A DNA stretch of 32,995 bases, from the IMG/VR virus record IMGVR_UViG_3300026372_000001, positions 1 to 32,995 of that record; one strand, written 5' to 3'. A program made the translations under genes and the position numbers. The notes below the pieces were generated by a model, which did not search any database, was not told the origin of the DNA, and saw nothing but the letters and a program-made list of their open reading frames with translations. Source of the DNA: a virus. This document shows positions 128-30,551 of this stretch, piece after piece; position 1 is the stretch's first letter, and the number at the start of each line of letters is the position of its first letter.

Positions 128-3100
128 TCTCGCCGGACGGCACAGGCGCACAGCAGCCCCACTGACCTGCGCTTTTATCACGCCGTTGATGGAGCGCTCC
201 ACGGTGAACGTCTGTGGTGATGACGTCCCGGAGATGCCCGTCACGCGCATGCGCTCCCCGGACACCATGACGTCGAGCGGGAACGCGTTCTCCGTCGTCG
301 TCCACCGCTGACCCGTGTACGTGACCGATAGTGACGTCGCCGTGCTGGTGACGCCTGCCGCCAGGGTCGACGTGTCGGAGTCGTATCGGGAGTGGTCGAC
401 ACCCCACCCCCGGTCGATGGCGTCCACGACACACCACACATCGTCGACATCCAGGGTGTACGTGTAGGACGAGGATGTCGTCCCGATCACCAGGGACTTC
501 ACATAGGTGGCGCTCCCGCCAGTGCGTGTCACCTCGTACTCGGTGTCACCGCCATCCAGGCGGATCGCTGCCCACCACGTGACGTCACCGTAGTAGACGC
601 GCCACTCCAGGTAGTGCCACGAGGTGTCGGCCGTGACACCGGTGTCGAGCTCGGATGCGCCTGACACGAAATCGACGACGATCGTGTGGCCTGCCGACAA
701 TGAGATATCGAAATGTCCGGAACCCGCGACATTCTGGATTGTCGCGATCCACGCCCCCGCGCCCGCGGATGGCAGCGTAGAGAAGTGGAACCAGAATCCG
801 CCCGTCGCCCAGGGTGACGTCTGAGCCCATTTCGTTGTCGACGTGGACACGTAGGCAGCTGCACCAGCCGGGGCGACGCGCAGCCCGTAGCTCCCCGAGT
901 GCGCGGCGGCGGCGACGGCCGTGACGGCACCAGAGGTCGTGACCCATGTCGCGAGACCACCGGACTCGAAATCATCACCGAAAGTGATTGTTTGTCCATA
1001 TTTTCCGACGAGGTGTGTCGTTCCGCGCGCGCACACCAGGTCCGTCACCAGCTCATATCGGTCCAGCCTGGACGATGCGCCCTGAACAAGTAGCTCCAGG
1101 ACGTCCGGTGGATACCCGGCCGGCTGCCCCGACAGGACCAGGCGCTGCCCTGGTGTGACGCGACGCAGATCCTCCGCCAGTGAGGTAGATACCACGGGCC
1201 TGGAGTGTCGCACCGCGAGCTGTGGGACGCGCGGCTGCTCATCCGTGCCCAGATGTACCCTCCACCAGGCGAGATCCGCCACGTCGTCGTCGAGCTCGCA
1301 GTTCACGGTGTCCGTGGCGGCATAGATCCCGACCCCGACCGGTGGCTGGGCGCTCGTCAGCGTGCCCTCGGTCGCCACCGCGCGCGCCGCGGACGCGTTC
1401 TTCCTGGTCAGCGTCACGTCGTTGACGATCCCCTGGTCGTCATCCGGCAGGGACGGCACCTCGGACAGGTCAGTCCAGTCGACCTCGACGGCGGCCGACT
1501 GGTTCATGGTGGCCCCGAGGGAGCGATACCACAGGCCGGCCCAGTACGGGGATTCCGACAGGACTCCGCCGTCCGCCGCCTCTGCTTCGCGCAGGATCTC
1601 CAGGGCCGTCGCGATCGGCTGGTATCCCATGGTCGTGCTCGTCCCGGACGCGCCCAGGTAGGTCAGGGGGATGCCCTCTTCTTCACAGATGCGCCTGACG
1701 CGCCGCGCAGCTGTTTCTCCCAAATATGCCTTGAATTGTTGGTAAAGAAGGAACAGCGAAGGTACTTCATTCATCACGTGCACGTGCCCGGCGGTGAGCG
1801 ACGCGATTATGGATGTCGGATCGAGAACGATCTGCGATACGCGCCCCAGGGTGCAGCTGGTCGCAGTCGTGGACCAGTAGAGTCCCGATGACGCGCCCTC
1901 GATGAAATACGCGAACGTGATTATGACGTCGCTGCCGGATGGTTCCAGGGATAGCGAGCAGAAAACCTTCTGACCCCATAGGGTCGACGTGGAACATAAT
2001 CCGGAATCGACAACTATCGCACCGGATGATGAATACGCAATGAATTGAACACCTGTGCTTCTATATATAATCTTTATGTAGCACAGCGATGTTGATTCCA
2101 TGCGTATCTGGAGAATGCACGACGTGTCAGTGGCAGTCGGCAAATACATTACCCACCGGACGGAATATCCAGCCGATGACGGAGTGAATACCGGCACCCA
2201 CCCGAAGCATCTCGCGTATCCGAGAACAGGAAGCGAGTCGCTCGCCTTGAATTCCGTGTAGGACGCCAACGCGGTCGTGGATGTCGCGCCCTCGATGGTC
2301 ATCGGGCGGGCCCCCGACACGGGGGTTCCGAAAGATCCAGCGTCGGCCCCGTCCTCCATCGGCCAGTACGCGACAGCCGGCGTCGCCAGGCTCGTGACAC
2401 CCCTGCGCATGGGTGACCCCAGTACGGCGGCCCCCTGACCGAGCCGGCGCAGGATCCCTGCCGCGCTGACCTGCACTGTCGCGTCGGCCAGTGTCGAATC
2501 CCATGTGGGAGGCCACTCGGACGCCTCCCCGGACCAGGCGACCTCCATGTCGCTGAGCTCGGTGCCACCGGCGAGCGTCCAGGAGTTCGTCCCGTCGCTG
2601 ATACTGGAGCTGCCGGCTGCCCCGGTCGACATGTCGAGGTCGACGAGAATACTCCCGGCTATCCCGTCGCGGATTTGCACGCGATGGTATTCGCCAGGGA
2701 AAGCTGTCGCGTACGTGGAATATTCGCTACAGCCGATCCTGATTGACGACGTACTGTTGTAGATGCTCGCGACGATTGTTCCAGTGACCGGGTCGCCTAT
2801 CCTGTGCCATGGCCCGGTGATCTCGTCGGCGAAATAGAACGCGGCGACGGAATTCGTCCCGTCGCTACAGTCGAGCGTGACACGCAGGCAGCGGCGGACC
2901 ATTGCCTCTTCGATGTAAACGCTGCATGTTGCTGTCTGCGTCGTCGCCCCATCCGCGGAATATATCAGGACGAGTTTTCCGCTCAGGAATCCGATCAGCC
3001 ACGAGTAATTCGAGGCTCCGAATTTCGAGATTATCCCTCGCGTTCCTTTCGGGCACCATCCTTCATAGGCGGTGATATCGAGTCGGATATCGAGATCCCC

Positions 3101-3418
3101 CACCGGCGAGGTGGAAGCGGAATCGGGGGAGGAGATATATGCCCCGGATTCCGCGTCGACCATGAGGCGAACAGTGTCCGTCACGCCGACCCTGATCGGT
3201 GTGTTGCGGCCGATCTGTCCATACCAGGCCCCGACTGGATTCCGTGGGCAGAATTTTCCGTCCCGATTGTCGAGCGTCGCCTGGAGCTGCCCTGTCCCTA
3301 CCGCAGATTGTTCGTCGCTACGGCCGTGACGCCACGTCATCCCGGCCGACTGACGCGGGTAGATGTCCGTCCACGTGTCGTCGACGCGTATCTGGATGCG
3401 CGGAGTGTAGGTGACCAT
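113..3418 (-). CDS. Large minor tail protein with lectin-like domains
   Basis: The 1101-residue product follows the tape measure gene, where distal-tail and receptor-binding proteins lie in siphoviruses. The N-terminal part (about 1-90) has the pattern common in actinophage minor tail proteins: a short beta start, a segment around LDNRDGKFCP, then a GxxGRNTPIRV motif near residue 72. The middle (about 100-300 and 360-560) and a segment near 800-1000 are rich in short beta strands with repeated Trp, Gly and Ser, consistent with concanavalin/LamG-like carbohydrate-binding folds. The start ATG at 3418 has a GGAGGG site 6-8 bases upstream and lies 16 bases after the tape measure stop. It probably combines hub and host-binding roles at the tail tip. 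The exact domain borders are inferred by eye. Confidence 0.8.
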   Translation of the reverse strand: MVTYTPRIQIRVDDTWTDIYPRQSAGMTWRHGRSDEQSAVGTGQLQATLDNRDGKFCPRNPVGAWYGQIGRNTPIRVGVTDTVRLMVDAESGAYISSPDSASTSPVGDLDIRLDITAYEGWCPKGTRGIISKFGASNYSWLIGFLSGKLVLIYSADGATTQTATCSVYIEEAMVRRCLRVTLDCSDGTNSVAAFYFADEITGPWHRIGDPVTGTIVASIYNSTSSIRIGCSEYSTYATAFPGEYHRVQIRDGIAGSILVDLDMSTGAAGSSSISDGTNSWTLAGGTELSDMEVAWSGEASEWPPTWDSTLADATVQVSAAGILRRLGQGAAVLGSPMRRGVTSLATPAVAYWPMEDGADAGSFGTPVSGARPMTIEGATSTTALASYTEFKASDSLPVLGYARCFGWVPVFTPSSAGYSVRWVMYLPTATDTSCILQIRMESTSLCYIKIIYRSTGVQFIAYSSSGAIVVDSGLCSTSTLWGQKVFCSLSLEPSGSDVIITFAYFIEGASSGLYWSTTATSCTLGRVSQIVLDPTSIIASLTAGHVHVMNEVPSLFLLYQQFKAYLGETAARRVRRICEEEGIPLTYLGASGTSTTMGYQPIATALEILREAEAADGGVLSESPYWAGLWYRSLGATMNQSAAVEVDWTDLSEVPSLPDDDQGIVNDVTLTRKNASAARAVATEGTLTSAQPPVGVGIYAATDTVNCELDDDVADLAWWRVHLGTDEQPRVPQLAVRHSRPVVSTSLAEDLRRVTPGQRLVLSGQPAGYPPDVLELLVQGASSRLDRYELVTDLVCARGTTHLVGKYGQTITFGDDFESGGLATWVTTSGAVTAVAAAAHSGSYGLRVAPAGAAAYVSTSTTKWAQTSPWATGGFWFHFSTLPSAGAGAWIATIQNVAGSGHFDISLSAGHTIVVDFVSGASELDTGVTADTSWHYLEWRVYYGDVTWWAAIRLDGGDTEYEVTRTGGSATYVKSLVIGTTSSSYTYTLDVDDVWCVVDAIDRGWGVDHSRYDSDTSTLAAGVTSTATSLSVTYTGQRWTTTENAFPLDVMVSGERMRVTGISGTSSPQTFTVERSINGVIKAQVSGAAVRLCRPARYSPI

Positions 3419-19126: not shown

Positions 19127-20467
19127 TCACAGTGAGCGAGGTAGTGGCGCCGGGTGTCCGGGTCGGCGTCGACGGTCGTGCAGGTACATCTGCACGTAGC
19201 GCATGGTGTCCATCCCATGATCGTCTTCTTTCACCGGGCGTTCTTTCTCGCCGGTCGTCTCCGGCCACACGTAGGACAGGACCTCCTCCTGCGTGCAGGT
19301 GGGCAGGCCGGCGTCGGCGAGCTCCGGGTCACGCTCGACGAGCGCGTCGCGCATGACGCGGATGCGCGGAACGCGCCCGTACTGACTGGTCAGGCGGTCT
19401 TTCACGACGCCGATGCCTGCCGATACGCGCTTGTCGGCCGCCACGGTTTTAATGCCGAGTTCCTTACGTAGCGTTTCCCGGTCCTCGGCGTCGTGGTCAC
19501 AGACGATGGCGACCGGGCGCGGCTCCAACCACTCCCCCGACGGCGAGCGCACGATGCGCAGGATGTGCGCCGCGTGTTCGGCGACGGTGCGGCGGGTCCG
19601 GTAGATCTCCCGGTACAGGACGCTCCACCCGTCCGGGCTGATCGCCCAGCACTGGAGAACGAAGGGGTTCGTGTACCCGAAGTCGATGCCCCACACGCGA
19701 TCCCAGTCGACTGGAATAGTGCGCTGGTTGATCAAGTGGATGGTGGGATCCCACGTGTCGTAGACGAGCCCTTCGGCGGCCGCCCAAATACCGTCGCGTA
19801 GACGCTGTCTGCGCACGCCGGTGAGCCTGTCGAGGGACGCGAGATATTTTTTTCCACGCTCGGTCGCTTTCCCTGTTCTCGGATTTATGAGGACAGGATT
19901 ATCGGAATGACGCGCGTAAACAATTCGCGTCGCACCGGCGTCGCACCGCCTTTTCAACCAATGCGTGGGAGGCCCCGGATTACAGTCCGCTATCATTTGC
20001 TGGAATGATATTCTGCCATTTCTCAGGCGCGTGGTGAGTGATTCCCACGCGGTGAGAGAAATGTCGGTGGCTTCCTGCACGTAAATGATGTCGTATTCTG
20101 ACGACATCACTTTTCCGGGTTTATCCATTCCGCCGACGCACAAGCGCGACCCATTCTGGAAAATGTATGCCGCCGGTTCCCTGGATGACCCGCCGTAGTA
20201 GGTGATCGCGCCGAGCGCGAGACACTCGGCCGCGACGTGTTCGCGCCACGTGACCATGCCGGTCGACACGAGGGACCGTTCGGTCTGGCGTACGGCCAGC
20301 ATCCGCACCCGTGGGCTCTGGAGTCCGATGATCAGGAGTTTTTCCAGGATCGCACGTGATTTCCCGGTGCCGGCCGGCCCGGACAGCAGTATCTCGGGGT
20401 CGCGTGACAGGTACACCTCGCGCGCCATACCGCGTGGCTCGTACGTGTGTCTGGCCACCGAGACCAT
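19127..20467 (-). CDS. terL: Terminase large subunit
   Basis: The 446-residue protein packages DNA into heads. Walker A is GPAGTGKS (30-37), Walker B with the catalytic carboxylate is DIIYVQEA (126-133), and coupling motif-like ADCNPG is at 160-165. The nuclease domain starts with GIDFG (260-264, Asp262) and has further acidic motifs around CDHDAED. It resembles the PBSX/Terminase_3 group. The ATG at 20467 overlaps the small-subunit stop by one base. Codons 71-82 are the target-like site of spacer 1 of the CRISPR array (20223-20255). Confidence 0.95.
   Translation of the reverse strand: MVSVARHTYEPRGMAREVYLSRDPEILLSGPAGTGKSRAILEKLLIIGLQSPRVRMLAVRQTERSLVSTGMVTWREHVAAECLALGAITYYGGSSREPAAYIFQNGSRLCVGGMDKPGKVMSSEYDIIYVQEATDISLTAWESLTTRLRNGRISFQQMIADCNPGPPTHWLKRRCDAGATRIVYARHSDNPVLINPRTGKATERGKKYLASLDRLTGVRRQRLRDGIWAAAEGLVYDTWDPTIHLINQRTIPVDWDRVWGIDFGYTNPFVLQCWAISPDGWSVLYREIYRTRRTVAEHAAHILRIVRSPSGEWLEPRPVAIVCDHDAEDRETLRKELGIKTVAADKRVSAGIGVVKDRLTSQYGRVPRIRVMRDALVERDPELADAGLPTCTQEEVLSYVWPETTGEKERPVKEDDHGMDTMRYVQMYLHDRRRRPGHPAPLPRSL
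20223..20255 (-). other. Protospacer-like match of CRISPR spacer 1 inside terL
   Basis: On the minus strand this site matches spacer 1 (29822-29854) at 30 of 33 positions, and the match runs 3 bases further past 20255 (to 20258) into the adjacent repeat. Counting 32 bases from 20254, positions 1-21 match and mismatches fall at 22, 25 and 31. The three bases 20257-20255 read ATG, which is a functional PAM for E. coli type I-E. Confidence 0.85.
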
Positions 20468-20901
20468 CAGGTCAGGCTGTCCGTCTCCGCACCGACGATA
20501 CGCACCTCGACGCGCGTACCGGGCGTCGCGTCGCGCAGCTGACCGAGATCCTCGGCAGCCTGACGCAGCGCTGCGAGCCGTACGCGCACCAGAGGGGCAC
20601 GGTCCTCGGGGAGGATGTCTGCGAGCGCCTGGTCGATGTCGTCGACGGTCTGCTGTATCTCGGCGACGCGTTCCTCGCGGCGCGCGATCCACAGGCCGGC
20701 GAGCGCGTCCATCTCGGAGTCGCGTATCCGCTGGATATCGTCAGCATGTGTTTGAGATATGCGATGTATTGACGGCTGGGACACGCCGTATTTTCCCGCT
20801 ATTTCTCTCTGCGTTAGTTCCCCGGACGCGATATCGCGAAGAACATGTAGTAGAACACGGCCCCGAATTTTTTTCTCGGAACCTGATTTGTTTTCATTCA
20901 C
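20467..20901 (-). CDS. terS: Terminase small subunit
   Basis: The 144-residue protein lies directly before terL and overlaps it by one base. An N-terminal HTH (about residues 28-55) includes QREIAGKYGVSQPSIHRI, which should bind the packaging site; the rest is helical (RREERVAEIQQTVDDIDQAL) and ends in a beta-rich tail, as in small terminases. I prefer the GTG at 20901 because a GGAGG site lies 8 bases upstream; the GTG at 20910 leaves no spacing to it. Confidence 0.88.
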   Translation of the reverse strand: MNENKSGSEKKIRGRVLLHVLRDIASGELTQREIAGKYGVSQPSIHRISQTHADDIQRIRDSEMDALAGLWIARREERVAEIQQTVDDIDQALADILPEDRAPLVRVRLAALRQAAEDLGQLRDATPGTRVEVRIVGAETDSLT

Positions 20902-24607: not shown

Positions 24608-26338
24608 TCACCATTTGGTGAGGATGCTGGTGAGCTCCTCCTCTACGGCCGGGTTCTCCACCATGCGTGCGCAGATCGCCGGCATCCCGTGGACCTTCAG
24701 GTACCTCTTGATGTGGGACCTTCGTCCCTCTGCTTCCCCCATCCATTCCGGGTCGTCGGCGGTCGCCATGACCGCCACCAGGCACCTACTGAGCTCGACG
24801 AGCTCGCTGGTCACGGCGTCGTCCTCGGTTCCGTTGAGCATCATGCCCACCTGGAGCTCGCGCGAGCGCGCCACGAGCCGGTACAGGACACACCTGTCGT
24901 CCGAGTCCGAGATGGGCTTCATGAGGCGCTTGGCCACGCGGCCAGCGATCTTGCACCTCCACTGGTCCATTTCTCCACGGCGTCTTTCCCAGGCGCTATC
25001 CCACGCGATCCACGGGATCACGTCCCCCGCGAGCTCGATGACATCGCACGCGAGTGCGATCCCATCATTGGGGACCTCTGTCTCGGGGTCGGCGGCGAGC
25101 GCGGCGGCGATCCGGGTTTCCCACACGTTGGCGTGGATCGTGTCCACGCCACCGTCGAGGCCGAATCTTGCCTGCGCGAACCCGGCCGCGAGGCCGGCGA
25201 CGGTGACGATTTTCAGCTCGATGGCGCGGTTGATGATGTTTTTCGCGTTTTGGTAGATGTACCCGGGGATCTGCCATTGCGTCAGCAGATCAACCAGGCG
25301 CCCCTCCGGGCCGGCCGTCGGCGTGGGGATCCTCACCACCCTGGCCGTGCACCAGGCTTCCATCCGGCTCCGTCCCGGCATGGCGATCATCGTGGGGCCG
25401 GCGTCGATGGCCCCCTGAGTGACACCGATCATGGTGTCAGGGGCCCACCGGGACTCCCATCCGTCCTCACACGGGTACTGGATGGGGCCGCCGTTCAGGC
25501 CATGCTTCAGATTTTCCGTGCCCCAGATGGCGGCCAGGCTGTTCTCACCCGTCCACGTAGGGGACCATGAGGCAATGACCTTGGTCATGACGTCTGCGAG
25601 CTCTGTCGCGCTGCCGATCGGCAGCGTCCCCTCCAGGATCCCGGGAATATTGCTACATCCCACCTCCCCCTGAATCAGGGGAACTCGCCCCCCCTTCAAG
25701 CACGCCATATGTGTTTCTTCGACTGTCTGCACGACGACGCATCGCGCCCAGAGCGCTGCTCGGCGCGCGACCGAGCACAGGGTCGGCAGCTGCCGGGCGA
25801 TCTCCTTGATGTCGCCTAGGTGCTCACCGAGCACCTTCGCGTCACGGTCCCAGGAGACGTCGTGCAGGTGGTCGGGCACCCAGCCCTGCCCGCGGACGGT
25901 CCGCCCGTCGGCGAGCAGGTAGTCGGCGATCTGGCTACCGCAGAGCTCCTCGGGGATCGGTACGCCGCTCCGGTACACCTCGGTAGTGGTGCCGTCGTCG
26001 AGGCCGGCCTGCACGTCGGCGACGTCGGCCAGTCGCTCCTGGAGGGACCCGAGGTCGCGCTCGCGGACCGCGAACGTCGACGGCGCGCAGGGCTGTCCCT
26101 GCGCGTCGGTGGTCGTGATGGTCGCGTCCCCATCCGTGGGGATCACGATGGAGACGTGGCGGTGCGTCCAGTGCCCGTCCCCGTGCATCCAGATGACGGC
26201 CCCCTCCAGGGAGGTCACGCGGTCCCAGATCTCGGGGGAGCAGGCGAGGGCGGACTGCATGGCGGCGCGATAGCGCCGCCACGGCCCGGGAACGGTCATG
26301 TCCTGGTCGTCGTCGACGACGTAGATGGTGTCAGTCAC
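24608..26338 (-). CDS. Large early protein of unknown function
   Basis: The 576-residue protein is the longest early gene. I see no Walker A, polymerase, primase or helicase motif. It is a soluble mixed protein with many Trp and Cys; a middle region (about 235-370) holds SWSPTWTGENSLAAIWGTENL, GWESRWAPDTMIG and AMPGRSRMEAWC, and a C-terminal helical half ends in a Lys/Trp tail. The GTG at 26338 is preceded by AGGAGA, and a GCCGGAG/CTCCGGC hairpin lies in its leader. Its place between the exonuclease and ERF genes suggests a role in replication or in take-over of the host; that is inference from position. Confidence 0.7.
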   Translation of the reverse strand: MTDTIYVVDDDQDMTVPGPWRRYRAAMQSALACSPEIWDRVTSLEGAVIWMHGDGHWTHRHVSIVIPTDGDATITTTDAQGQPCAPSTFAVRERDLGSLQERLADVADVQAGLDDGTTTEVYRSGVPIPEELCGSQIADYLLADGRTVRGQGWVPDHLHDVSWDRDAKVLGEHLGDIKEIARQLPTLCSVARRAALWARCVVVQTVEETHMACLKGGRVPLIQGEVGCSNIPGILEGTLPIGSATELADVMTKVIASWSPTWTGENSLAAIWGTENLKHGLNGGPIQYPCEDGWESRWAPDTMIGVTQGAIDAGPTMIAMPGRSRMEAWCTARVVRIPTPTAGPEGRLVDLLTQWQIPGYIYQNAKNIINRAIELKIVTVAGLAAGFAQARFGLDGGVDTIHANVWETRIAAALAADPETEVPNDGIALACDVIELAGDVIPWIAWDSAWERRRGEMDQWRCKIAGRVAKRLMKPISDSDDRCVLYRLVARSRELQVGMMLNGTEDDAVTSELVELSRCLVAVMATADDPEWMGEAEGRRSHIKRYLKVHGMPAICARMVENPAVEEELTSILTKW

Positions 26339-26444
26339 TGTGTCTCCTGGTGTAGTGCCACGCCGGAGCAGCCATTCTCCGGCAGTGATTCCACTATACA
26401 TCATGCACACCTAGCGCACTATGTGTCTGGGGCGCCCGCCCCCG
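26339..26444 (-). promoter_or_regulatory. Leader and promoter region of the 576-residue gene
   Basis: It contains, in minus-strand order, GTGCGCTAGG and GCATGATG (26399-26406), a possible -10 TATAGT, a 7-bp hairpin (26362-26368 with 26377-26383) and an AGGAGA site. GTGCGCTAGG also occurs before the ERF leader. Confidence 0.55.
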
Positions 26445-27206
26445 TCATCCGTAGACCGGCCATCCCATGCGCATCGAGTCAGCCCGCTCCGGGGACGTCC
26501 TTGAGAAGTACGCGCGCAGGGACTCCTGCTGCTCCCGCGCCCAGATCCTCTGCGCCTGGCAGAGCCCCTCCACGCTCTCCCCCGACCCTGTCGTGCCCTG
26601 GGAGGCGACGCGCACCATGGCGGCCACCCGGTCCGCCGGCAGGGCATGGATGAGACGCAGGGTCGCCACCGCGTCCCCACACGCGTCATGCGCGTCCAGG
26701 TCGGCCGTCTCGATCCCGTAGTGCGCGCACGTGTCCATGAGCCGGCGGCTACCGCGCCGGTAGCGGTCGATCGCCTTGTCGATCACGAGCGGGTCGACCA
26801 GGCGGCCCCTGGCGGCGTGCGAGATCCTCCCCCACACGTCGTCCAGCTCGTGTCGGCGGCACTCGGCCCTGATCAGGGACAGATCGTAGGGCGCGTTGTA
26901 GACACCCACGATGTAGCTGGGCGACCGCGCGACATCCTCCAGAGCGGTCGCGATCGCTTCCAGGGCGACATGCGGCTCCACGCCGCCGCCCGCGACCATC
27001 TCGTCGGTGATGTGGTGGACATCGGTCGCCCCAGGAGGGATGGGCACCCCGGGGTTCACCAGGATGCTATCCCGGTAGACGGACCCCATATCGGGCTCGT
27101 AGGTGACGACCCCGAGCTGGACGATCCGATCTGTTTCGGTGTCGACACCGGTGGTCTCGGTGTCGATGATGACCGCTGGCAGGCTCCTGTACATGCCACT
27201 GATCAT
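26445..27206 (-). CDS. DnaQ-like 3'-5' exonuclease
   Basis: The 253-residue product has all three exonuclease motifs of the DEDDh group: IIDTETTG with Asp15 and Glu17, YNAPYDLSLI with Asp108, and HDACGDAV with His173 and Asp178. It likely degrades or proofreads DNA during phage replication or recombination with the ERF protein. The ATG at 27206 overlaps the previous stop by 4 bases. The C-terminal 75 residues are outside the family core and helical, of unknown function. Confidence 0.88.
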   Translation of the reverse strand: MISGMYRSLPAVIIDTETTGVDTETDRIVQLGVVTYEPDMGSVYRDSILVNPGVPIPPGATDVHHITDEMVAGGGVEPHVALEAIATALEDVARSPSYIVGVYNAPYDLSLIRAECRRHELDDVWGRISHAARGRLVDPLVIDKAIDRYRRGSRRLMDTCAHYGIETADLDAHDACGDAVATLRLIHALPADRVAAMVRVASQGTTGSGESVEGLCQAQRIWAREQQESLRAYFSRTSPERADSMRMGWPVYG

Positions 27207-28763: not shown

Positions 28764-29726
28764 ATGGATATCACCGTCACCCACGAGGGACAGCTCCTCG
28801 TCGTCACCACGCCGTATAGCGGAACCTGGAACACCCGCGCCAACGAGCTCAAGGGAGAGTGGAGCCGCGAACGCGGCGCGCGGATCTTCAGCTGCGTCCA
28901 CGAGGCCCTGATCCGCCAGGCCCTCGTGAACATTTTCGGCACCGACGGCACCGGCCCCAGCGCCGAGCCGCGCCTGGCGCGCATCGACGTCGCCATGATC
29001 ATGGCCGTTCGCAGCAACTATCGGCAGGCGGAGTGCGTCATCGCCGGCCGCACGGTCGCGAAACGCCGCGGCCGCGACATGGGCGCAACCCTCGGCGAGG
29101 GCGTCATCCTCGCCGAGGGCGGATTCGCCGGATGCGGCGGATCGATGAAGTACCCCGAGCTCTCGCCGAAAAGCACGTGCGTGGTGCACATGGAGATGCC
29201 GGCGGGGGCACTCGCCATGGCGCTGGAGCGCTATGGCGACGCGATCCAGGACATTACACCCGAGCCCGAGCCCGAGCTCGATGTCGATGAGCACATCGCG
29301 CCGATCGTGATCGTCACCGAGGCGGACGACACGACAGCGGCCACGCCCGCACCGGCGGAGGAACTGCTCGCACGCCTGGCCAGAGTCGAGCAGGCGCTCG
29401 GTGCGCAGCAGGAACGCATCGCCACGCTCGAAGCAGCCGTCGGTGCGCAGCAGGAACGCATCGCCACGCTCGAGGGCGAACTCGCACAGGAGCGCGCCCA
29501 GGCGGCCACCCAGGTCCAGGCAGCGGCCGAGCCGGAGAAGCCGGAGGAAGAGATCAATGCCGCGCAGGCCGCGGAAATATTCGGCGTGACCGCGTCGACA
29601 GTGCGCAGGTCGCTCGCGAAGCCTGGAGCGCCCCGAGTGCGTGGATACCGCCACGGTGCGAGGGTGTACGCCCTCATCGAGATGAGAGACCACTGGGAAG
29701 CGACGCATCCTGTCGCGCGCATCTAG
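28764..29726 (+). CDS. HARP-like / coiled-coil / HTH protein
   Basis: The 320-residue protein starts at ATG 28764 with AGGAGG 8-13 bases upstream. Residues 10-60 (TTPYSGTWNTRANELKGEWS, then FSCVHEALIRQAL) resemble a HARP-like DNA-binding fold seen in phage and plasmid proteins. Residues 200-260 are an acidic to helical coiled coil with a 14-residue repeat (GAQQERIATLE occurs twice). Residues 265-320 form a MerR-like HTH (INAAQAAEIFGVTASTVRRSL). It is one of only two plus-strand genes and is divergent from the early operon, so it may be a phage master regulator or DNA-binding protein. No enzyme motif is seen. Confidence 0.65.
   Translation: MDITVTHEGQLLVVTTPYSGTWNTRANELKGEWSRERGARIFSCVHEALIRQALVNIFGTDGTGPSAEPRLARIDVAMIMAVRSNYRQAECVIAGRTVAKRRGRDMGATLGEGVILAEGGFAGCGGSMKYPELSPKSTCVVHMEMPAGALAMALERYGDAIQDITPEPEPELDVDEHIAPIVIVTEADDTTAATPAPAEELLARLARVEQALGAQQERIATLEAAVGAQQERIATLEGELAQERAQAATQVQAAAEPEKPEEEINAAQAAEIFGVTASTVRRSLAKPGAPRVRGYRHGARVYALIEMRDHWEATHPVARI
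29400..29473 (+). repeat. 42-bp-period tandem repeat inside the coiled coil
   Basis: The 32-base segment at 29400-29431 is repeated at 29442-29473. The period of 42 bases (14 codons) equals two heptads, which keeps the coiled coil in register. It looks like a recent internal duplication. Confidence 0.85.
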
Positions 29727-29741
29727 GACATATACACGCAA

Positions 29742-29773
29742 GGCCCCACCAGGTCACTGGTGGGGCCTTCCGT
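29742..29773. terminator. Bidirectional terminator between plus-strand gene and array
   Basis: A 13-bp inverted repeat (AAGGCCCCACCAG with CTGGTGGGGCCTT, 4-base loop) lies 15 bases after the stop at 29726. It can end plus-strand transcripts of the HARP-like gene and minus-strand transcripts through the CRISPR array. Confidence 0.75.
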
Positions 29774-29793
29774 GTTGATACAGAACGCAGATG

Positions 29794-30211
29794 ATGCTAT
29801 CCCCGCGTGGGCGGGGACGACCTCTCGGTCGTGACGTGTTCGCGCCACGTGACCATGCTATCCCCGCGTGGGCGGGGACGACGTGGGGCCGGGTTCAATT
29901 TGCGTCATCGTTCCGGGCTATCCCCGCAGGCGCGGGGAACATGTTGCAGATGGGGCTTCCCCGCGTGGGCGGGGACGACTACGAGCTCATGGGCGATGCT
30001 GGCGCGTCGACGGGACTATCCCCGCGTGGGCGGGGACGACTTCGAAGGGGTCGCATGGTGGGAGATCCTCGCCGGACTATCCCCGCGTGGGCGGGGACGA
30101 GTTGCCCATGCCACGTTCAGCGGGGCTATCCCCGCAGGCGCGGGGAACACATAGAGGTCATATCAGATCTCGGCCCGAAGCTGGGGCTATCCCCGCAGGC
30201 GCGGGGAACAC
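29794..30211 (-). CRISPR. Phage-borne type I-E-like CRISPR mini-array, 8 repeats, 7 spacers, no cas genes
   Basis: Repeats of 27-28 bases lie at 29794-29821, 29855-29882, 29915-29942, 29953-29979, 30013-30040, 30074-30101, 30123-30150 and 30184-30211. On the minus strand each is a 5-base start, the stem CCCCGC with GCGGGG around a 4-base loop, then ATAG(C/T)CC or ATAGCAT. This is the type I-E layout, including stem position. Two types occur: A (GTCGT start, CCAC loop) five times, and B (GTGTT start, GCCT loop) three times. Spacers, left to right, are 33, 32, 10, 33, 33, 21 and 33 bases. The usual period is 61. No cas gene or AT-rich leader is present. The array follows the 90-residue gene by 15 bases and probably shares its promoter. 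Confidence 0.9.
29822..29854 (-). other. CRISPR spacer 1, matches own terL
   Basis: This leader-distal spacer matches 20223-20255 with three mismatches at the PAM-distal end. Translated in the terL frame it reads VTWREHVTTE, against VTWREHVAAE in this phage. All three differences change a codon's first base, as expected for a related terminase rather than random decay. Confidence 0.85.
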
Positions 30212-30226
30212 TCTTGCTGACCAGCA

Positions 30227-30499
30227 TCATACAGCTCCCCGACCGCACCACACGAACGCAAGATTCCCGCCGCCGAGTCGTTCAGTATCGACCGGGACGA
30301 TTTTCCCTGCCCGCGCGCACTCGCGGAAAGCGGCTCCATAGAAGCTACGCCATGGAACATGAATGTCGTCGGCGGTAAATTTTTTTCCCGTTTCCGCCAA
30401 CTCGCAGATGGCATTCTTGACAAGCTGTGTTCTGGTCGCCGCGCTGACGACATTCATCCTGCCAGCCTGGACCGGTATATCCATGGCGAGCTGTTCCAT
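30227..30499 (-). CDS. Small winged-helix-like protein before the CRISPR array
   Basis: The 90-residue product starts at ATG 30499 with AAAGGAG 5-11 bases upstream. The core (about 20-75) has RTQLVKNAICELAETGKKFTADDI, then SFYGAAFRECARAGKIVPV and GGNLAFVWCG, resembling small phage proteins with a winged-helix fold. Its stop lies 15 bases before the first repeat of the CRISPR array on the same strand. It follows the holin-like gene and has a near-consensus promoter. It might regulate or accompany the array, but its function is unknown. Confidence 0.7.
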   Translation of the reverse strand: MEQLAMDIPVQAGRMNVVSAATRTQLVKNAICELAETGKKFTADDIHVPWRSFYGAAFRECARAGKIVPVDTERLGGGNLAFVWCGRGAV

Positions 30500-30523: not shown

Positions 30524-30551
30524 ATTATGCACGACATTTCATTCATGTCAA
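30524..30551 (-). promoter_or_regulatory. Near-consensus promoter for the 90-residue gene and array
   Basis: On the minus strand, TTGACA (30551-30546) is followed by 16 bases and CATAAT (30529-30524). Transcription should begin near 30517. The region is clearly richer in A and T than its surroundings. It is the best housekeeping-type promoter in the window. Confidence 0.78.

Follow-up and report, generated by a model that had tools for sequence, protein, structure and literature searches.

A type I-E-like CRISPR array without cas genes in a complete-looking phage genome

CRISPR mini-arrays lacking cas genes have been described in viruses, and according to the published pattern they target close relatives of the virus that carries them (PMC6858448). 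The mini-arrays of the Sulfolobales viruses SPV1 and SPV2 combine host-like repeats and a leader sequence with spacers against their own lineage, and reciprocal targeting of sequenced relatives was shown for them (PMC6858448). Cas-less mini-arrays of bacterial phages are described in PMC6858448 as leaderless, with spacers that match closely related phages and leave the carrier unmatched. Phages also encode CRISPR repeat mimics, the RNA anti-CRISPRs (Racrs), which are solitary repeats and of which type I-E examples were tested by the authors (PMC10651486).

The array described here is located in the IMG/VR virus record IMGVR_UViG_3300026372_000001, which was analysed as a whole (32,995 bases, referred to as the window). 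As in SPV1 and SPV2 it is virus-borne and cas-less, with host-like repeats, leader sequence and a spacer matching its own lineage, but the SPV1/SPV2 arrays hold one or two spacers, archaeal repeats and full promoter-bearing leaders, whereas this one consists of eight repeats of two types behind a 12-nt leader end, and its nearest match is found in the carrier's own gene instead of in a sequenced relative. From the bacterial phage mini-arrays, as described there, it differs in having a leader end and a match to its carrier with three mismatches, and from the Racrs in being a multi-spacer array with eight repeats in one place.

The phage genome and the anatomy of the array

The window carries an exact direct terminal repeat of 127 bp, which is consistent with a closed circular assembly, and the genome looks complete. 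It encodes the tailed-phage genes terL, portal and major head protein together with large ORFs in the tail region, and further an Erf-like annealing protein, a DnaQ-like exonuclease, a replication initiator-like protein and a GH25 endolysin; the phage proteins scanned did not include an integrase. The terL gene product shares up to 59% identity with its nearest relatives in IMG/VR and 50–56% with the TerL proteins of two isolated phages, P1312 (Thermobifida) and Dagobah (Streptomyces). Together with the repeat type and the leader end (see below) these relatives point to a likely actinobacterial host, in agreement with the earlier note on this sequence. A 600-aa protein encoded in the replication region (24608–26410, minus strand) gave no match in Pfam, PHROG, NCBIfam or PADLOC, and no relative in IMG/VR when searched by peptide patterns.

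No cas6e was found in the phage genome and no Cas effector or adaptation family among the phage proteins scanned, and the DnaQ-like exonuclease (26445–27206) matches a generic DEDDh model only. The array is thus situated, without any cas gene, inside a closed virus contig, as expected for a virus-borne cas-less mini-array, and on this point the earlier note was right.

Eight type I-E-like repeats of 29 nt extend over positions 29793–30211, one base further than previously given (29794). Both the orientation of the repeats and a comparison with a chromosomal array beside cas6e place the crRNA sense on the minus strand, and repeat 1 is therefore the one at 30183–30211. Along the plus strand the start-to-start distances are 61, 60, 37, 61, 61, 49 and 61, and in crRNA sense spacers 1 to 7 are 32, 20, 32, 32, 8, 31 and 32 nt long. 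The previous description of mostly 32–33-base spacers is loosely worded, as four are 32 nt while the others measure 31, 20 and 8 nt. Representative repeats fold into a strong I-E hairpin (z about -3.4 to -3.9), and the CCCCGC/GCGGGG hairpin repeats and unique spacers of ~32 nt, with two shorter ones (20 and 8 nt), are those of a type I-E array. A long ORF running through the array (29791–30378) was rejected as a sign of coding origin, being the usual spurious translation of I-E repeats.

When the repeats were compared two types appeared, differing at six bases. Type A, GTGTTCCCCGCGCCTGCGGGGATAGCCCC, comprises repeats 1, 2 (30122–30150) and 6 (29914–29942), and type B, GTCGTCCCCGCCCACGCGGGGATAGTCCC, comprises repeats 3 (30073–30101), 4 (30012–30040), 5 (29951–29979), 7 (29854–29882) and 8 (29793–29821), all on the minus strand. 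Within type B, repeat 5 combines the type B stem with an A-like 3' end that is one base shorter, repeat 7 ends in GCATG and the leader-distal repeat 8 in GCATC. Spacers 1 (30151–30182), 3 (30041–30072), 4 (29980–30011) and 7 (29822–29853), likewise on the minus strand, each have 32 nt and lie between repeats of the same type. The three spacers of other lengths, spacer 2 (30102–30121, 20 nt, A/B junction), spacer 5 (29943–29950, an 8-nt remnant, B/A junction) and spacer 6 (29883–29913, 31 nt, A/B junction), are exactly the three situated between unlike repeats, a full coincidence with a chance of 1 in 35. Because all the irregular spacers, and no others, sit where the types meet, the array looks like a recombinational mosaic of two arrays and not like the product of Cas1-Cas2 only; apparently it was assembled from two bacterial arrays.

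Putative expression signals were identified on both sides. On the minus strand upstream of the array a promoter-like site, TTGACA-16-CATAAT (11 of 12), is located at 30524–30551, with one site found against 0.3 expected in shuffles of the region. It is followed by a small ORF of 90 aa (30227–30499, minus strand) with no family match, starting with an ATG at 30499 after AAAGGAG and ending with a stop 15 nt before repeat 1, an arrangement suggesting that the array would be co-transcribed with the small ORF. On the other side a strong hairpin, AAGGCCCCACCAG...CTGGTGGGGCCTT (29740–29769, minus strand; -37.6 kcal/mol, z -7.5), sits between the array and a converging gene at 28764–29726 and is likely to be a two-way terminator, although for want of a U-run it was not picked up in the scan for expression signals. 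Apart from this converging gene, the early region has no large gene on the plus strand. The N-terminal part of the encoded protein has relatives among proteins of Fusobacterium and Salisaeta phages (phrog_18108), and the C-terminal HTH resembles MerR or a terminase small subunit.

Relation to host I-E loci and to other phage-borne arrays

Arrays similar to type B, differing from it at one or two of 28 bases, were found on the chromosomes of two genomes from one actinobacterial family, G172 and G048, and in G048 a cas6e gene is situated ~1.3 kb upstream, placing this repeat type beside I-E cas genes. In the array of a further genome, G040, the first 21 bases of the repeat are identical (GTCGTCCCCGCCCACGCGGGG) and the 3' end is different. 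Type A was absent from 35 genomes of the order to which G172 belongs. An exact repeat search for kin gave no viral contig, and a combined A and B pattern run against a set of 84,980 species gave four Streptomyces contigs with one match each, none of which contains an array of type A or B; an exact array of either type was not found in the sequenced hosts.

The minus-strand sequence just before repeat 1 is CTGGTCAGCAAG-A. The 12 bases CTGGTCAGCAAG (30213–30224, minus strand), which adjoin repeat 1, are the same in G040, and counterparts are found in the other two genomes, where the chromosomal arrays begin after CAGATCAGCAAG-G (G048) and CAGGTCAGCAAG-G (G172). With the pattern TCAGCAAG-N5-TCCCCGC-N4-GCGGGG and at most one mismatch allowed, 47 of 297 actinobacterial genomes had the core TCAGCAAG beside an I-E repeat, and the reversed control gave none. 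Judged by these comparisons the array retains the end of an actinobacterial I-E leader, 12 nt in register with the host arrays, without a longer leader or an AT-rich leader region. The absence of an AT-rich leader proposed earlier accordingly holds by composition, the last 60 nt before the array being about 40% AT, but it overlooks the host-type leader end adjoining repeat 1. This retention is not unique to the phage, as near versions of TCAGCAAG beside the first repeat were found in five other IMG/VR records (L106:1380, L124 at 2367 and L127 at 2064, both minus strand, L152:1355 and L163:7356).

A scan of IMG/VR revealed 82 stretches with two I-E-like repeats about 61 bp apart. Among 50 such records tested cas6e was absent from 46, and the four having it exceed 125 kb. 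The view that such an array would be unusual in a phage of this kind could not be upheld, as they recur in IMG/VR and one is carried by six isolated Streptomyces phages of 37–38 kb; the array is a further case of the known virus-borne cas-less mini-arrays and not a rarity. Within its own lineage no array pair was found in 44 terL-related records, and it was therefore probably gained recently.

The six Streptomyces phages, Piccadilly, Ignacio, Vondra, Cumberbatch, Eastland and HFrancette (host S. sanglieri), have a six-unit unannotated array in common, which in Piccadilly lies between genes 53 and 54 (L174:2876–3190; OL455886, about 34591–34905). It resembles the present array in being cas-less and intergenic in an actinophage and in its I-E-like hairpins (spacing 61/60/58/49/51), and is nearly identical across the six phages. 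Unlike here every repeat is different, with the stems intact, and no spacer match was found in the own genome or in the loci retrieved. Piccadilly encodes a serine integrase and is thus temperate.

Spacings of 49–51 bp, corresponding to spacers ~12 nt short, were observed at L127:4573–4732, at L174:3061–3177 and in the present phage (30073–30150) and were absent from the few host arrays looked at, cases that are too few to judge. No excess of the 49-bp spacing in phage arrays is claimed, since the two cases in L127 are units similar to each other and do not count as independent.

Spacer targets

At 29 of 32 positions spacer 7, GTCACGTGGCGCGAACACGTCACGACCGAGAG, agrees with the phage's own terL (19127–20692). 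The near-protospacer is located at 20223–20254 on the minus strand with mismatches at positions 22, 25 and 31, leaving the first 21 positions from the PAM side perfect and all three mismatches PAM-distal, and ATG occupies the PAM position (20257–20255). Of 1500 random 32-mers drawn from unrelated phage contigs every one had at least seven mismatches to the phage genome, and among 1500 from contigs of terL relatives three had four or fewer. In the best terL relatives spacer 7 has eight mismatches or more, and no perfect target was found in the loci retrieved; spacer 7 matches the terL lineage, with the carrier's own copy as the best match. Among the spacer-encoded peptides that of spacer 7 alone scored above shuffled controls. 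It reads VTWREHVTTE, compared to VTWREHVAAE in the phage's own TerL and VTWREHVVTE in the relative L017, and because it resembles the peptide of L017 as well as the own one, the source of spacer 7 is likely to be the terL of a related phage outside the collection.

The carrier's own terL keeps an intact seed and ATG, and spacer 7 could for this reason possibly harm the phage that carries it. In E. coli ATG is listed among the working PAMs, and Cascade binds fully and without interference at protospacers with blocks of PAM-distal mismatches (PMC5904413). The PAM of Streptomyces avermitilis is AAN (PMC12231136). As the PAM rules differ between hosts, the host would decide if the carrier is attacked, bound or left alone.

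Spacers 1, 3, 4 and 6 were scanned against IMG/VR with a 20-base pattern in which the flipped-out positions were left free, giving only matches that failed outside the pattern (10–14 mismatches). Comparison of the array spacers with phage and plasmid records gave repeat-driven or chance-level matches only, and blastn matches between the array and phages of Gordonia and Pseudomonas were rejected, with E-values of 0.04 or worse and the Gordonia ones spanning both repeat and spacer. Missing targets are to be expected where close relatives have not been sequenced; among Streptomyces spacers 99.5% are reported to lack a phage or plasmid match (PMC12231136).

Matches to the carrier were also seen in other phage-borne arrays, where several of 198 spacers match their own contig with 0–6 mismatches. 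In L103 (2601–2633) a spacer has a perfect match in its own contig that covers both the ribosome site and the start codon of an ORF (2624–3103), with TGA in the PAM position, and the same spacer is present in L105, L109, L126, L132 and L145. Other self-matching spacers, at L118:6237, L100:3680, L119:8608 and L141:836, have 1, 4, 6 and 6 mismatches respectively and lie ~0.1–0.8 kb from the array, the one in L141 with an AAG PAM and an intact seed.

Possible functions of the array

The explanation that we prefer, and hold with about even confidence, is that the phage-borne array acts in trans with a host type I-E system and interferes with related phages. The array would have been captured from actinobacterial I-E arrays with the leader end kept, the two repeat families being joined by recombination. 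Transcription would start on the minus strand from a phage promoter near 30540 with the array as the tail of the small-ORF transcript, the repeat hairpins would be cut by host Cas6e, and the predicted processed crRNAs (61 nt, minus strand, 8-nt handles AUAGCCCC and AUAGUCCC) would be loaded into host Cascade. Spacer 7, perhaps with other spacers, would then guide Cascade and Cas3 to co-infecting phages of the same terL lineage, to the benefit of the carrier, whose own terL differs from the spacer at the three PAM-distal positions and, in a host with the S. avermitilis rule, would lack an AAN PAM.

Interference with relatives is favoured because the array consists of eight hairpin repeats with mostly 32-nt spacers, because a type B-like chromosomal array is found near cas6e (G048) and the leader end is common to host arrays, because a promoter-like site and a terminator-like hairpin flank the array, and because spacer 7 comes within three mismatches of terL where random 32-mers from unrelated phages never came below seven. 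Against it stand the facts that spacer 7 has its closest known match in the carrier, that no target was found for spacers 1, 3, 4 and 6 and two spacers are truncated, and that sequenced hosts gave no exact array of either repeat type. The superinfection exclusion suggested in the earlier note has one piece of direct support, the match of spacer 7 to terL of its own family, and this support is mixed, the nearest known match being the own gene and four spacers having given no target.

It is less probable, and on balance unlikely, that the array is an RNA anti-CRISPR in which hairpins made early occupy host Cas6e or Cascade subunits, or fill Cascade with non-targeting crRNAs and so dilute the host spacers. 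Stems kept intact where 3' ends and spacers vary or are truncated would fit such a decoy, as would the stems of the Piccadilly-type array, kept though every repeat differs, and the position of the array, preceded by a strong promoter-like site and then a small orphan ORF, recalls the tendency of known Racr loci to be found close to acr genes (PMC10651486). However, the published Racrs are solitary repeats (PMC10651486), five of the seven spacers measure 31–32 nt and one has a phage target, for which a decoy has no need, and the leader end is retained.

Doubtful, too, is the idea of a functionless and decaying fragment of a host array gained by recombination. The truncated spacers at the A/B junctions, the damaged repeat 5 and the divergent leader-distal repeats speak for decay, and the 44 terL-related records without an array pair give no sign of long retention, but a promoter-like site, intact stems and a retained leader end in a compact genome speak against a passenger. 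A spacer against the phage's own family is moreover unlikely in a random host array, considering the share of Streptomyces spacers without any match (PMC12231136), and such arrays recur in many phages.

A regulatory role, in which host Cascade guided by the crRNA of spacer 7 would sit on the phage's own terL, leave it uncut and thereby delay packaging, is considered very improbable. The match unbroken over 21 positions from the PAM side, with only positions 22, 25 and 31 mismatched, the full binding without interference at PAM-distal mismatch blocks in E. coli (PMC5904413), and the self-matching spacers of other phage arrays, perfect over an ORF start codon in one family, agree with it. Three scattered mismatches are, however, fewer than the blocks tested in E. 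coli, so that cutting might still occur, the site lies within terL and not at a promoter, and ATG may not be a PAM of the host (AAN in S. avermitilis, PMC12231136). An assembly chimera, with a host array wrongly joined to the phage contig, could be imagined for a public virus record but is rejected as extremely unlikely, the contig being closed by its exact terminal repeat and the array being flanked by a gene with phage relatives on one side, by small ORFs and then the endolysin on the other, and by no cas or host gene.

The traits worth following are the mosaic of two repeat families, the kept leader end and the near-match to the carrier's own terL. A leader end kept here, with near versions in five other IMG/VR records, means that some phage arrays may still accept spacers, and the near-match, together with the self-matches in other phage arrays, raises the testable question whether such guides attack relatives, are tolerated or regulate the phage that carries them. 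For the Piccadilly-type phages, which are isolates, the host strain is named, and arrays of this class could be tested there. It is a long shot that the leader end lets host Cas1-Cas2 add spacers in the phage and that the imperfect guide at the same time makes Cascade bind terL and not cut it; if true, one array would act against relatives as a weapon that updates itself, and on packaging as a timing switch.
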